Positions 5,820-14,296 of a stretch of DNA of 15,271 bases are shown here, piece by piece. Origin of the DNA: Parcubacteria group bacterium CG10_big_fil_rev_8_21_14_0_10_38_31 (GTDB lineage Bacteria; Patescibacteriota; Minisyncoccia; GCA-002772825); the NCBI GenBank assembly GCA_002772825.1, contig PFDM01000010.1, forward strand, positions 1,054 to 16,324, written 5' to 3'. Within the stretch, counting starts at the first letter, position 1. Each line of letters starts with the position of its first letter. The notes under the pieces were generated by a model. That model searched no databases. It was not told the origin of the DNA and saw only the letters and a list, made by a program, of their open reading frames with translations. A program made the position numbers and the translations under genes.

Positions 5820-7094
5820 CGGGTTTAGATACCATTCACGAGGCGCCAATGGCAAAGTCATCTTAGTACCACAAACCTTACTGGTGATTGTCCCCACCTC
5901 CACAGCTTGAGTGGCATACACAGTGAAATGAAGATGCGGACCGGTCGTGTATCCGGTATCACCAGAATATCCTATAACCTGACCTACTGAGACCTCTTGC
6001 CCTTTTGAGACCTTTATCAAGGAAAGGTGCGCGTAAAGAGTAGTCAGATTATTAGGGTGTTCTATCAATATCCATCTACCATAAGATACACCAACGCATC
6101 CTATATCTGTGTCACCCACGCCGACAACCACCCCTTTCTCGGCGCTCTTCAATGGTGTGCCTATACTTGCCCCAAAATCAACTCCATTATGACCGCCACC
6201 ATTATAAACTTGCGGATTTTTAGTCGCAAAAGGCGTGTTGCCAAAATACTGAGTTATTCTTACATTATCAATCGGCCATTTTAAGACACCAGGGCCAACA
6301 AGTGGCAATGATGTAGGGTCTATCTCTACTCTAAGTTTATCTTCAAAATCCTTTATCTCCTCTTCTAACGCTTCTTTCTGTTTCATCCTGTCTGAAAGTA
6401 ATTGTTTATAATTTGATTCTTTATTCTTTGTCTGATCAAGTAAAGTGGTTTTTTTAGTCTTATTTATCGACACTAAAGAATTTTGGTCCTTATACTTCGC
6501 TTGCATGCCCTCCAGTTTCGCTTTATTTTCCTCTTTATCGTCTTTCTGCACCTCCAGTTCAATTTTGAACTCACCGAGCTTTTCAAGATTGATGCTCATT
6601 GTCTCTTGAAAATTTTCCAATCTTTCCAAGTCGCTAAAAAAATCAGAAAAATTATTATTTATAAGAACCATCTCTATCATCGACATAGACTCATCTTCGT
6701 TTAAGTTCTTTACAATCTCGGCGATGGCCTCCTTCCTTCTTTCGATATCTTTTCTTTTTTGCTCTATTTCAATTATAAGCTCATCTATACTAAGACTGGT
6801 CTCATCTATCTGACCTTCCGTATAACGAATATCGGCTTGAAGCTTCTTTTCTGTGACATTTAACTTCTTTATCTCGTTATCTAAAGTCTTTTTTTCTTTA
6901 CCAAGGCTATTTATCTCCGCTTCATATTCATCAATCTCTTTTTGAATATCTTTTAATTTATTATTTCTATCTAAAATATTATTTTTAAGTTCGCCTACTG
7001 AAACAGCATCAGTTTGCGATACAAGAAAAATAGATGTTAAAAACAAAATTAATAATAATATAAAAAAATTTATTTTATATTTTTTCAATAGCAT
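5805..7094 (-). CDS. Coiled-coil M23 metallopeptidase (EnvC/NlpD-like murein hydrolase)
   Basis: The 429-residue protein has a basic start and a signal or anchor helix (about 8-27). A long coiled coil (about 32-255) follows, then a C-terminal M23/LytM domain (about 270-429). All catalytic elements are present: GHNGVDFG supplies zinc ligands H302 and D306, LYAHL supplies H356, and GPHLHF supplies H387 and the third ligand H389. M23 enzymes cut peptide cross-links of peptidoglycan. Unlike E. coli EnvC, which has degenerate zinc residues and only activates amidases, this one should be active itself. An extra cysteine pair (C333, C408) lies within the M23 domain. The start overlaps the end of gltX by 20 bases on the same strand, so translation may be coupled; no Shine-Dalgarno is obvious. 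It acts outside the cytoplasmic membrane, probably in cell separation or wall remodelling. Confidence 0.9.
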   Translation of the reverse strand: MLLKKYKINFFILLLILFLTSIFLVSQTDAVSVGELKNNILDRNNKLKDIQKEIDEYEAEINSLGKEKKTLDNEIKKLNVTEKKLQADIRYTEGQIDETSLSIDELIIEIEQKRKDIERRKEAIAEIVKNLNEDESMSMIEMVLINNNFSDFFSDLERLENFQETMSINLEKLGEFKIELEVQKDDKEENKAKLEGMQAKYKDQNSLVSINKTKKTTLLDQTKNKESNYKQLLSDRMKQKEALEEEIKDFEDKLRVEIDPTSLPLVGPGVLKWPIDNVRITQYFGNTPFATKNPQVYNGGGHNGVDFGASIGTPLKSAEKGVVVGVGDTDIGCVGVSYGRWILIEHPNNLTTLYAHLSLIKVSKGQEVSVGQVIGYSGDTGYTTGPHLHFTVYATQAVEVGTITSKVCGTKMTLPLAPREWYLNPLSYL

Positions 7095-8430
7095 TTTTAA
7101 TACGCTTAATAGATTCTTCTTTCCCTAATACTTCACTCATCATGAAGGGGTCCGGCGATTTCTGTTTGCCGGACAAGGCCACACGAAAAGGCCATAAGAC
7201 GTTACCTCTCCCCTCTTTCTCGGCATAATCCCACACAAGACCCTTGATAATCTCTCTATTGAAAGCAGACTCTTTTATGTCGCACAATATATTTAAGATA
7301 TATTCCAGATGAGACTTAGTCTTATCTATATCTTTCTCATCTTTCCAATTCAACATCTCTTTTTCATATTCTGGCACATGGAAAAAATAATCTATCGAAT
7401 CAGCAATATCACTAAATTTCTCAATTCTCTCAGCCTCGATAGACACCACCTTTTTCCAAAGGTCATATTTTTCATCGGCCTCTTTTTTTAAATCATCGGG
7501 GAGGAAATCGATTAGAACTTCTGCCAGATGATCGATAGGCGCGTTTCTGATATATTGCTTATTTATCCAATTCAATTTCTCAATATTAAATATAGCTCCT
7601 TTTTTCTGAACTTTGTTTATGTCAAATTTCTTAACCAATTCATCAAGATAAAAGATCTCTTCATCAGTCCCCTCTCTTCCCTGAGGAGACCACCCCAAGA
7701 GAGCTAGAAAATTAATTAAAGCCCCTGAGATATACCCTTCTTCCTTGTATTTATTCACAGACACCACTCCGTGACGCTTGGATAATTTTGATTTATCCGG
7801 AGCAAGAATAAGTGGAATATGCGCGTATATTGGTCTAGGAGCGCCGATAGCTTCTTGAATAAGTATCTGTCTGGGAGTATTAGAGATACCATCGTCCCCA
7901 CGGATTATATGTGTCACCCCCATATCAAAGTCGTCTACCGCTACCGCCAAGTGATAAAGCGGGCTCTCCATATCTCTTGCCACTACAAAATCCCCAAGCT
8001 CTGTAGTGTCAAACTCTATCTCACCTCTGATCAGATCATTAAACTTTATCTTTACATTAGGGTTTTTGAATCTTATAATCTCGCTCCTCTGACCTTCCTC
8101 CTTAGGCTCTTCTTTAGAGATGTAAGCGGTCCCCTCTTCTACCATCTTGCTGAGATATTTTTTATAGACATCCTTCCTCTCAGACTGACGATAAAATTCA
8201 TCAAATTTTATCCCAAGCCAATCTAATCCATCTATTATATCTTTTTCATATTCCGGCTTGGATCTCTCTGTATCCGTGTCTTCTATCCTAAGAATCATTT
8301 TCCCTCCGTTCTGTTTTGTAAAAAGATAATTAAAGAGAGCCGTCCTGGCGCTTCCCAAATGCACCGGCCCGGTAGGGCTCGGTGCAAAACGAGTCACAAT
8401 TTTTTGAGGCTGATTATTTTTTTTATCCAT
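7075..8430 (-). CDS. gltX: Glutamyl-tRNA synthetase (compact form)
   Basis: The 451-residue class I synthetase charges tRNA with glutamate. The N-terminal signature RFAPSPTGPVHLGSARTALF (14-33) contains the HIGH-type motif as HLGS (24-27). DKSKLSKRHG (212-221) is the KMSKS-type loop as KLSKR. HIIRGDDGISNTPRQIL (174-190) and the LALLGWSPQ segment follow family order, and the C-terminal half is the helical anticodon-binding region. In the connective domain, TAYISKEEPKEEGQRSEIIRFKNP (101-124) runs almost directly into the next strand. The cysteine-bearing insertion of E. coli GltX is missing, so no zinc site is expected. The lineage usually relies on a non-discriminating GluRS plus GatCAB; whether that holds here cannot be seen. 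Upstream, TATAAA lies eight bases before the ATG at 8430. It is divergent from the transposase unit. Confidence 0.95.
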   Translation of the reverse strand: MDKKNNQPQKIVTRFAPSPTGPVHLGSARTALFNYLFTKQNGGKMILRIEDTDTERSKPEYEKDIIDGLDWLGIKFDEFYRQSERKDVYKKYLSKMVEEGTAYISKEEPKEEGQRSEIIRFKNPNVKIKFNDLIRGEIEFDTTELGDFVVARDMESPLYHLAVAVDDFDMGVTHIIRGDDGISNTPRQILIQEAIGAPRPIYAHIPLILAPDKSKLSKRHGVVSVNKYKEEGYISGALINFLALLGWSPQGREGTDEEIFYLDELVKKFDINKVQKKGAIFNIEKLNWINKQYIRNAPIDHLAEVLIDFLPDDLKKEADEKYDLWKKVVSIEAERIEKFSDIADSIDYFFHVPEYEKEMLNWKDEKDIDKTKSHLEYILNILCDIKESAFNREIIKGLVWDYAEKEGRGNVLWPFRVALSGKQKSPDPFMMSEVLGKEESIKRIKNAIEKI

Positions 8431-8504: not shown

Positions 8505-8538
8505 AAATTTTTATATATAAGAAAGAATATAAAAATTT
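8505..8538. repeat. 12-bp AT-rich inverted repeat abutting the REP-like palindrome
   Basis: AAATTTTTATAT (8505-8516) and its exact reverse complement (8527-8538) flank a ten-base spacer. The right arm ends at the base before the first palindrome copy (8539). It lies in the divergent gap between gltX and the transposase gene, and could be part of the mobile unit or a regulatory hairpin. AT-rich repeats can arise by chance, but the exact abutment is notable. Confidence 0.45.
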
Positions 8539-8565
8539 GCAAAGGTTAAACCTTTGCAGTATAAT
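8537..8565 (+). promoter_or_regulatory. Promoter of the transposase gene, spacer formed by a palindrome
   Basis: A -35 TTGCAA (8537-8542), 17-base spacer and perfect -10 TATAAT (8560-8565) are followed by eight bases and the ATG at 8574. The palindrome 8539-8557 overlaps the -35 box and fills most of the spacer. A transposase that binds this palindrome would compete with RNA polymerase at its own promoter. Confidence 0.5.
8539..8557. repeat. REP-like palindrome, copy A (promoter)
   Basis: Perfect 19-base palindrome GCAAAGGTT-A-AACCTTTGC, the first of three related copies within 705 bases. It lies 16 bases before the transposase start codon. It lacks the GTAG-type foot of classical enterobacterial REPs. 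Confidence 0.8.
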
Positions 8566-8573
8566 CAAATTAT

Positions 8574-9233
8574 ATGAAACCAAAGAATTTCTCTACAGGA
8601 AATTATTATCATATTTATACTAGAGGTACGGAAAAACGAAAAATTTTTATTGATAAGCAGGATTACCAAAGATTTTTAATTTTACTTCATTTATGTAACA
8701 ATTCCGAACCTGTTGATATAAGAGCTCTTTTCCGCAAAGGTTTAACCTTTGCGGAAATAATGAATATTAAAAAAGAAGCCCCGTTAGTAGATATCGGCGC
8801 TTATTGTTTGATGACAAACCACATTCATCTATTAATAAAATCTAAAGACGCAGACGGAATACCTCGTTTTATGCAAAAATTATGTACAGCTTATACAATG
8901 TATTTTAATAAAAAATATAAAAGAACGGGTCGACTTTTTGAATCAACATTTAAGTCAAATTTTATTGATAGTGATGAATATTTAAAGTATATGTTTGCTT
9001 ATATACATTTGAATCCTATCAAATTGATTGACCTGCATTGGAAAGAAAAAGGGGTAAAAAATTTAGAGGAAGCCAAAAAATTTCTGAATAATTATCTTTG
9101 GTCAAGTTATTCATCATATATAGACAACCAAAATAACTCTATATTAGATAAAAGAGAGTTTCCTCGCTATTTTAACACTAAAAAAGAGTTTGATGATTTC
9201 ATAGATGACTGGTTATTGTTTGCGAAGGTTTAA
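8574..9233 (+). CDS. REP-associated tyrosine transposase (RAYT, Y1/HUH family)
   Basis: The 219-residue protein is a Y1_Tnp (PF01797) HUH nuclease of the TnpA_REP type. YYHIYTRGTEKRKIF (11-25) is the family start; AYCLMTNHIHLLIK (76-89) holds the HxH metal motif (H83, H85). MQKLCTAYTMYFNKKYKRTGRLFESTFKSNFI (100-131) is the conserved core, and YMFAYIHLNPIK (139-150) carries the catalytic Tyr143. All key residues are present and the frame is intact, so it may be active. Such enzymes cut single-stranded DNA at hairpins and move or multiply REP sequences. Palindromes flank the gene: copy A in its promoter, copy C across its stop codon. A third, copy B, lies inside it and encodes RKGLTFAE in a variable loop (about 50-68). 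Codon use is AT-rich like its neighbours. Inserted between gltX and the cell-wall operon, divergent to one and convergent to the other. Confidence 0.9.
   Translation: MKPKNFSTGNYYHIYTRGTEKRKIFIDKQDYQRFLILLHLCNNSEPVDIRALFRKGLTFAEIMNIKKEAPLVDIGAYCLMTNHIHLLIKSKDADGIPRFMQKLCTAYTMYFNKKYKRTGRLFESTFKSNFIDSDEYLKYMFAYIHLNPIKLIDLHWKEKGVKNLEEAKKFLNNYLWSSYSSYIDNQNNSILDKREFPRYFNTKKEFDDFIDDWLLFAKV
8729..8757. repeat. REP-like palindrome, copy B (inside the transposase gene)
   Basis: A perfect palindrome with 14-base arms: TTTCCGCAAAGGTT, a central T, and the reverse complement. It extends the common core by five pairs and is read in frame as part of LFRKGLTFAEI, residues about 52-62, before the HUH motif. 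It is the longest of the three copies. Confidence 0.8.
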
Positions 9234-9243
9234 CCTTTGCGAA
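9219..9243. repeat. REP-like palindrome, copy C (over the stop codon)
   Basis: Arms TTTGCGAAGGTT and AACCTTTGCGAA around a central T, with two positions that pair only as G-U in RNA. The transposase stop TAA (9231-9233) is at its centre. Its last base is directly next to the murG stop codon (9244-9246, read on the other strand), so it is the whole junction between two convergent genes and may act as a bidirectional 3'-end hairpin. Confidence 0.75.
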
Positions 9244-10380
9244 TTAGGCGTGTTCTAAGGCGATATTTATTATTTCTCTGGCAATCTGATGTCCGGCGTT
9301 GGGCTTATAAAATTGATTGGCCTTAATACGGACTTCTTCTAGTTGCTCTTTTTGCGATAAAATCCTATCTATCTCTGAAAGAAGTATGTGCGGTGAAAGA
9401 TTTCTTTCTTCAATCACTTCTGAAGCGCCCGTCCTTGCAAAAGCATAAGCATTTTCTCTCTGATGGTCTTGTGCTGAGCCAGTAAGTGGTATAAGGATGC
9501 TCGGCTTACCCCAAGAGGCAATCTCAAATATGGCCGACGATCCAGCCCTTGAGATGATTATATCTGAGGCGGCGGCGGACATCTTCATGGCAGATTCGTT
9601 TAAAAATCCGAAAACACGATACCTGTTTTTAAATGGCGAATTCTCTAAGGCGACTGCCACTCTCCCTTCAGTTTCTTTAAAATTAATCTTTCCACACTGA
9701 TGGATAACCTGATATTTAGAAGACAGTTCACTTGCCATATCAACGACGATATTATTTATCTTTTGTGAACCCTGCGAACCACCCAAGATAAATACAACGG
9801 GCACGCTCTTATCAAGTTGAAGGAATTCACTAAATCCTTCTTTAGGTAGACGAATTAAACTCTCTCTAACCGGATTCCCAACAACAGCTATTTTATTTCT
9901 TGTTTTCTCCGGAAAGTGGTTTATTGATTCAGGAAATGATACGGCTATCCTTTTAGCAAATTTTGAAGCCCATTTGTTCACTCTCCCGGGGACAACATCG
10001 GACTCGTGAATAACAACAGGTATTCTGAAAAATCTCGCCGCAAAAATCACAGGAAAACTGGCATAACCTCCTTTACCAAACACTACATCGGGAAATTCAG
10101 TATAAATAACAAATAATGTCCTAATTGTGCCTAAAATGATTTTTATAGCATCTGTTATGTTCAGAAATGAAAAATAACGACGAATCTTTCCCGATGTTAT
10201 CTTTCTAAACTTAATCTCCTTCTCATCAAGCATTCTTTTATCATAAGGAGCATCAGACATATAAATAAGCTTAGTATTAATAAGCTTCTCCTCGTCTATT
10301 ATATTGTTTAATTCCTCGGCAACGGCAATGAGCGGATAAAAATGACCACCAGTCCCGCCACCAGTAAGAACAATCTTCAT
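9244..10380 (-). CDS. murG: MurG, lipid II-forming GlcNAc transferase
   Basis: The 378-residue protein adds GlcNAc to lipid I to make lipid II at the inner face of the membrane. Signatures: IVLTGGGTGGHFYPLIAVAEEL (3-24) with the GGTGGH loop (8-13), FGKGGYASFP (101-110), VVIHESDVVPGRVNK (122-136), VVGNPVRE (167-174), ILGGSQGSQKIN (198-209), and SRAGSSAIFEIASWGKPSILIPL (277-299) with the UDP-binding Glu. DHQRENA (305-311) follows. The usual HEQN in the acceptor loop is HESD. Length is normal. It is the last gene of the mraY - amidohydrolase - ftsW - murG run, 52 bases after ftsW. A TATTAT lies seven bases before the ATG and could be an extra start site. The murC gene that often follows is absent; the transposase unit sits immediately beyond the stop. 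Confidence 0.95.
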   Translation of the reverse strand: MKIVLTGGGTGGHFYPLIAVAEELNNIIDEEKLINTKLIYMSDAPYDKRMLDEKEIKFRKITSGKIRRYFSFLNITDAIKIILGTIRTLFVIYTEFPDVVFGKGGYASFPVIFAARFFRIPVVIHESDVVPGRVNKWASKFAKRIAVSFPESINHFPEKTRNKIAVVGNPVRESLIRLPKEGFSEFLQLDKSVPVVFILGGSQGSQKINNIVVDMASELSSKYQVIHQCGKINFKETEGRVAVALENSPFKNRYRVFGFLNESAMKMSAAASDIIISRAGSSAIFEIASWGKPSILIPLTGSAQDHQRENAYAFARTGASEVIEERNLSPHILLSEIDRILSQKEQLEEVRIKANQFYKPNAGHQIAREIINIALEHA

Positions 10381-14244: not shown

Positions 14245-14296
14245 AATAAAAAAAACCCTACCTGTTAGACATTCAATGTCTAACAGGTAGGGTTTT
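14245..14296 (-). terminator. Strong intrinsic terminator of the GC-rich gene
   Basis: Perfect 20-bp arms (14252-14271 and 14277-14296) around a TTCAA loop, which can pair one base further. On the - strand the stem is followed by a T-rich tract that begins with the T arm and continues to about 14245. It lies 25 bases past the stop of the gene at 14322 and upstream of the mraY promoter, so it insulates the two units. Confidence 0.85.

Follow-up and report, generated by a model that had tools for sequence, protein, structure and literature searches.

In-frame REPs inside RAYT genes are already known. In subclass 2.4 of the TnpAREP proteins (RAYT group 4), Quentin et al. (2018; PMC6006769) described REPs that lie in frame within tnpAREP genes, generally between the HuH and the Y motifs, and that carry a GT[AG]G foot. 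In that article, the subclass is described as mostly found or abundant in Cyanobacteria and Bacteroidetes, and the internal REPs are modelled as a peripheral extension of the protein and considered to be loop insertions of probably little impact; the terms 'Parcubacteria' and 'candidate phyla' do not occur in its main text. The article also names five residues of E. coli RayT in connection with the GTAG contact (W94, Q95, E100, H101 and R104). Intragenic REPs and Rickettsia palindromic elements are likewise palindromes inside protein genes, and PMC3733652 describes them as scattered over many host genes. In the literature searched, which reached neither preprints nor most subscription papers, no report was found of internal cognate REPs in Patescibacteria or of a concerted change of internal and flank copies.

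The window, i.e. the whole stretch of 15,271 nucleotides of patescibacterial DNA that was analysed, contains an intact RAYT gene on the plus strand (8574-9233), as the original prediction had claimed. The uninterrupted open reading frame encodes 219 amino acids and matches the Pfam family Y1_Tnp (E 4.5e-9); with the NCBIfam model NF047646 (REP_Tyr_transpos) it reaches 47.5 bits, which is below the curated cut-off of 80 bits. The protein combines an HUH motif (H83, H85) and a single catalytic tyrosine (Y143) with a predicted Y1 fold, and these three columns are invariant in all 181 non-redundant relatives of the alignment. For the AlphaFold2 model (mean pLDDT 83), the top solved structure in Foldseek, and the sole match below 0.001, was 4er8, which shows the E. 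coli RAYT together with a REP hairpin (E 2.4e-4; TM 0.39 (by query length)/0.50). The gene is located between two minus-strand neighbours, a class I tRNA synthetase upstream (7075-8430) and a family 28 glycosyltransferase downstream (9244-10380), the latter being convergent with the RAYT gene.

Three copies of one palindrome with the consensus GCAAAGGTT-W-AACCTTTGC accompany this gene, at the upstream, in-frame internal and stop-codon positions that had been predicted. The 5' palindrome, GCAAAGGTT-A-AACCTTTGC (8539-8557), is an exact copy and centred 26 bp ahead of the start codon. The internal 19-nt core (8734-8752, residues 54-60) is also exact and is part of a perfect 29-nt palindrome around one central base, TTTCC-GCAAAGGTTTAACCTTTGC-GGAAA (8729-8757), which corresponds to nucleotides 156-184 of the coding sequence and is read in frame as residues 52-62. 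The 3' palindrome, GCGAAGGTTTAACCTTTGC (9222-9240), has one mismatch (GCGAAGG...), spans the final codons (AKV) as well as the stop codon, and ends 3 bp short of the end of the convergent gene. With up to three mismatches, 0.01 copies are expected by chance in the window, and none of 200 shuffles reached three copies. Folding as single-stranded DNA yielded -8.8 kcal/mol for the 5' copy (z -5.5), -14.5 kcal/mol for the internal copy (z -7.5) and -6.2 kcal/mol for the 3' copy (z -3.8). At the protein level, AlphaFold2 predicts the stretch written by the internal palindrome as two short helices (49-54 and 59-62) connected by a turn, in a loop between helix 28-40 and strand 72-79, ahead of H83 and H85. 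An unrelated perfect inverted repeat with 22-nt arms round one base is located between two minus-strand ORFs of the window (14252-14296) and bears no relation to the RAYT palindrome.

The locus resembles E. coli rayT (b0228; 4er8) in fold, catalytic motifs and the presence of palindromes on both sides. Unlike the window gene, however, E. coli rayT has no internal copy: the best matches of its flank palindromes within the coding sequence have 7-8 mismatches of 19, and the alignment shows a gap of 28 columns at the site of the internal copy (site A below). The E. coli residues W94, Q95, E100, H101 and R104 align with F122, E123, S128, N129 and D132 of the window protein; none of the 181 relatives has W at the first of these columns, and 98 of them have Q at the next. 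GT[AG]G feet are absent from all three copies of the window, and this foot is not enriched among the surveyed flank palindromes, cognate or not (19 of 384, against 17.5 in shuffles), while other foot tetramers show only mild enrichment.

The original prediction had proposed a genome-wide search for the 19-base core. In the assembly (585 kb, 63 contigs), the palindrome is present at eight places with 0-1 mismatches, and no copies with two or three mismatches occur anywhere in it. Because the ends of contigs C4 and C10 have 51 identical bases in common at the palindrome, they probably represent one copy, and the genome would probably contain seven distinct copies, three at the RAYT locus and four dispersed. 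Of the dispersed copies, three are outside all stop-to-stop frames of at least 60 amino acids, and the fourth lies only within a minus-strand frame of 76 amino acids without Met. The palindromes thus behave, as proposed, as repeats belonging to the window RAYT, and this arrangement, with own palindromes on both sides of the gene and additional ones at other genomic places, corresponds to the broad definition of RAYT/TnpAREP. A low copy number was also found in the single-contig genome G115, in which three of five copies (0-1 mismatches) are at the RAYT locus and one of the other two is inside a frame of 329 amino acids, possibly a gene. So few copies per genome make a random landing in the RAYT gene unlikely and leave either a strong local preference or selective upkeep.

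One dispersed copy connects directly to the coding sequence. A 68-bp piece of the RAYT gene that ends just past the internal palindrome (8692-8759, plus strand) is repeated in contig C61 with 66 of 68 positions identical; it starts 42 bp ahead of the inner core, extends to the GGAAATA just after it, and in C61 is outside any frame of at least 60 amino acids. Since homologues share the residues that precede the palindrome, the direction is from the RAYT gene to C61, and on this sequence comparison the RAYT gene is the source of the piece. The internal site can act as a donor: a segment of the gene terminating at the 3' foot of its inner hairpin was copied to another genomic position. This is the only clear donor case; in genome G202, palindrome copies with coding-sequence flanks provided no clear case. 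The other dispersed copies have a similar GGAAAT foot, but share a left flank of another kind. A derivation of the left flanks of about 100 bp in C6, C29 and C10 from the RAYT coding sequence was considered and is merely suggestive, as 6, 3 and 31 per 1000 shuffles scored equally well. As a separate observation, a repeat of about 120 bp carries the first palindrome at its right end (L008:2717-2839, L009:2477-2608 and L010:2094-2211); L010 also contains an inverted partial copy (2293-2337), and the repeat may therefore be a MITE-like element.

The genome encodes a second RAYT (L012:1896-2552, contig C41, minus strand; Y1_Tnp 22.3 and 23.2 bits at a cut-off of 23), which follows the same 5'/internal/3' plan with a different palindrome, GGCGGCGGAGCCGCC. 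One copy, different in one letter, is located 33 bp upstream of the start codon, a second is in frame near residue 156 (LGGGAAKL), and the 3' copy is read in frame close to the N-terminus of the protein encoded downstream, which Pfam identifies as a sulfatase (L012:374-1873, minus strand). This second palindrome is also found inside unrelated ORFs (L010:2926-2954 in C29 and L094:1501-1515 in C31); it spells QLGGGAAKL in one frame and YYLAAEPPSS in another, and in this respect resembles the Rickettsia palindromic elements. A third RAYT-like gene is present at a contig end (C59:5-265, L105); its protein is 56% identical over residues 132-216 and its DNA contains an 81-bp match at 81%.

A spread of the palindrome into the coding sequence had been part of the original prediction, together with the suggestion to compare orthologues with and without the loop. 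In 40 aligned rows (the window protein and 39 homologues with 55-67% identity), the sequence of the loop is LF-x-KGLTF-x-EI or a variant thereof; G56 is invariant in all 40 rows and KGLTF is common among the nearest homologues. Conservation of the loop across the homologues indicates that the window gene did not receive its palindrome recently, and a recent insertion is ruled out because the loop residues are ancestral. Loop and C-terminal peptides of the homologues hinted at other palindromes, and their DNA was then compared: many relatives encode the same loop as a palindrome of their own with different letters, and others have none. A recent spread is thus not supported; judged from these alignments, the internal palindrome is old and rewritten. 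What the original prediction had named as a refutation, no further copies in the genome and orthologues that share the loop without a palindrome, was not observed, as copies exist and many relatives have a palindromic loop.

The survey of related genes started from 239 loci with good matches to the window RAYT, consisting of 80 named loci, additional loci and loci from a genome search (113 of 383 genomes matched), including 100 extracted regions. These provided 215 RAYT frames, of which 189 were complete with enough flank, and 177 of the 189 have a flank palindrome; the named hosts are in the main patescibacterial. With the first 30 nt and the last 45 nt of the coding sequence left out of the search, 77 of the 177 genes contain their own flank core with 0-2 mismatches (49 exact, 15 with one and 13 with two), while the core of one gene was found in the coding sequence of another in only 3 of 879 comparisons. 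Decayed copies are scarce: the best internal match has 3-5 mismatches in 12 of 177 genes, and about 7 are predicted by the control rate (37/879). Removal of redundancy at 80% identity left 181 genes, 169 of them with a flank palindrome, and 74 of these 169 have an internal copy with 0-2 mismatches. As the set was drawn from good matches to the window RAYT, this 44% is not a class-wide rate; for the set itself it is a lower bound, because the palindrome finder breaks at a near-centre mismatch and missed the second RAYT of the genome, and because some genes scored as negative have a palindromic loop without a detected matching flank.

In window numbering, 60 of the 74 internal copies are at site A (residues 50-66, before HuH), eight are at site B (residues 90-93, just after HuH) and six at site C (residues 164-184, after Y). 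Relative to the codons, the palindrome occurs in three phases at site A (36, 20 and 4 genes), in one at site B and in two at site C. The surveyed RAYTs are therefore like subclass 2.4 in having an HUH/Y1 protein, REPs on both sides and in-frame copies inside the gene, but differ from what PMC6006769 reports for this subclass: the main site is before HuH instead of between HuH and Y, the genomes are patescibacterial, the GT[AG]G foot is not enriched and, as detailed below, the concerted change of the copies was measured.

No internal copy with up to three mismatches was found in 91 of the 169 genes. Among the 29 rows nearest to the window RAYT (profile score of at least 285), 14 have an internal copy, 14 do not and one was unscorable. 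Most of these 14 negative rows have no palindrome in the loop at all; exceptions are L141 and L122, in which a loop palindrome is present and no matching flank was detected. A clade of 14 rows in the tree, mostly named Nomurabacteria, has an internal copy in 0 of 13 scorable rows. The abundance of such relatives indicates that RAYTs in general can do without the internal copy, and that it is frequently gained or lost. Thirteen copy-less members of the clade have flank palindromes (L022-L026, L028-L030, L033, L035, L036, L038 and L040) and constitute natural controls.

Whether the letters of the internal copy follow the peptide or the flanks was examined by replacing the covering codons with synonymous ones. 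For the 74 genes, the mean mismatch to the flank is 0.55 and rises to 5.34 after synonymous resampling, while self-pairing declines from 0.90 to 0.51; the fraction of resamples that are as good as the natural sequence has a median of 0.0005 and is at most 0.05 in 73 of 74 genes and 0.063 in the remaining one. The 19-nt tests comprise 73 genes, after exclusion of one gene whose internal copy has 17 nt. When each gene was compared with its nearest relative of identical site and frame, its internal copy was closer to its own flank than to that relative's internal copy in 71 cases, with two ties and none farther (mean distances 0.56 and 6.66, respectively). For these two tests, as for the comparison with the cross-gene control, the genes had been preselected for matching. 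This does not apply to a flank-blind test, in which up to 17 central nt were compared and 51 of 54 site-A loops with a perfect inverted repeat (arms of at least 7 nt) matched their own flank with 0-2 mismatches. Among the three exceptions is a RAYT with a site-A loop palindrome of 46 nt that is unlike its detected flank palindrome (L048:5179-5224).

The changes follow base pairing. In the three main groups, all internal 19-mers are distinct (35 of 35, 20 of 20 and 8 of 8), and their stem positions change in pairs. In the largest group of 35 genes, stem pairs 3, 5 and 6 are Watson-Crick pairs in all genes (14.8, 29.5 and 27.7 after shuffling), pair 2 in 32 (12.0), the outermost pair in 25 (11.2) and the innermost in 24 (13.4). 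Identity between internal and flank copies reaches background at about 13-16 nt from the centre, which implies a shared unit of about 23 bp, or about 11 nt on each side of the centre; no clear signal was obtained for own outer stems beyond the shared core. On a FastTree phylogeny of 159 columns that left out the site columns and contains many weak forks, the site-and-frame states require 38 changes, against 71.6 after shuffling, and values as low were reached in 0 of 200 shuffles. The site and frame groups have a median identity of 44-63%, and the letters of their palindromes change. Chance is excluded for the internal copies of this family, and the non-random nature claimed for the copy in the window holds.

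These data are consistent with a self-contained RAYT unit, composed of the enzyme gene and three hairpin-forming copies of one palindrome. The palindrome would act as a single-stranded hairpin that is bound and nicked by the RAYT, and this hairpin is probably the DNA on which the window enzyme acts. The internal copy might represent a resident substrate or cis site whose sequence is adjusted together with the flanks when the enzyme acquires a different specificity; the peripheral loop in which it lies would tolerate any peptide that the palindrome happens to encode. We rank this reading, which is based on sequence comparisons, above all others, and judge its chances of being correct to be evenly balanced. 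The DNA substrate of the enzyme hence seems to write part of the RAYT protein itself, and the concerted change of the copies argues that more may be at work than the little impact suggested in PMC6006769.

The strongest alternative, which we consider a serious though somewhat less probable candidate, is recurrent neutral self-insertion: REPs would jump with a strong preference for the vicinity of their own RAYT, into those loops of the gene that tolerate short in-frame inserts, and because old copies are lost or overwritten, the visible ones would match the current flanks. It agrees with the interpretation of the subclass 2.4 cases as loop insertions in PMC6006769, and the use of three protein regions in several reading frames, the lack of an internal copy in half of the nearest relatives and the occurrence of the second palindrome inside unrelated ORFs all fit such a process. 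Unlike the Rickettsia palindromic elements of PMC3733652, with which the present case shares palindromes in protein genes and, for the second palindrome, in other ORFs, the host here is the repeat's own RAYT gene and the identity with the flanks is kept. Neutral self-insertion is less easily reconciled with the clustering of site and frame over deep divergence while the letters change, with the low number of decayed copies, with the rarity of loop palindromes that disagree with the detected flank, and with the few copies elsewhere in the genomes counted. Nevertheless, self-insertion at one permissive spot combined with the loss of old copies would yield much of the same picture.

Improbable in our view is an autoregulatory role, in which the 5' copy would be an operator within the promoter and the internal copy a roadblock or mRNA hairpin, such that the protein limits its own synthesis. 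The promoter-like sequence TTGCAA-17-TATAAT (8537-8565, plus strand) agrees with the consensus at 10 of 12 positions, and the 5' palindrome covers its first hexamer and the spacer, so that the overlap stated in the original prediction exists; its reading as a promoter is weak, since the window contains 8 such sites and shuffles 6.3. The TATAAT right after the 5' copy has a counterpart in a similar TATTAT at the second RAYT of the genome, and in genes with an internal copy the 5' copies vary little in position (71 copies, with centres at a median of -35.5 relative to the start codon and quartiles of -43.5 and -27.5), but a constant distance is also expected for the end of a mobile unit. Across the family, 48 of 142 cases show a -10 box adjacent to the 5' copy, against 34.3 in shuffles, an enrichment too slight to establish it as a general feature. 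The role of the 3' palindrome as a 3'-end signal, which had also been suggested, finds no support: on the plus strand, no terminator-like site for the 3' end of the RAYT gene was found in the window, and the sole site of this kind is formed by the minus strand of the 5' copy. Finally, that the loop peptide is kept for the protein's sake and merely appears palindromic is suggested by the common KGLTF of the nearest homologues, but the peptides at one site differ widely (RKGLTFA, REGGSFA, YQGRTLM, IQGLPLD, YEAKPRK, SEVELRS), several reading frames are in use and synonymous resampling destroys the flank match, which refutes this explanation for the family as a whole and makes it hardly credible.

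Returning to the internal copy as a resident substrate site, it is tempting to extend this reading to a large patescibacterial RAYT lineage, in which the intragenic hairpin would function in cis and co-evolve with enzyme specificity. A stretch of the protein would then be dictated by the structure of the DNA or RNA, and each change of the repeat would rewrite it in frame. We consider this extension tentative and rather unlikely in its full scope. Irrespective of it, the family offers many natural sets of an enzyme, its own palindrome and its loop, with joint change of repeat and enzyme, in which those parts of the RAYT that read the hairpin can be sought by covariation. It also provides a case of a protein segment whose sequence tracks a DNA hairpin rather than the function of the protein, and makes testable whether RAYTs copy, excise or regulate via sites inside their own gene.
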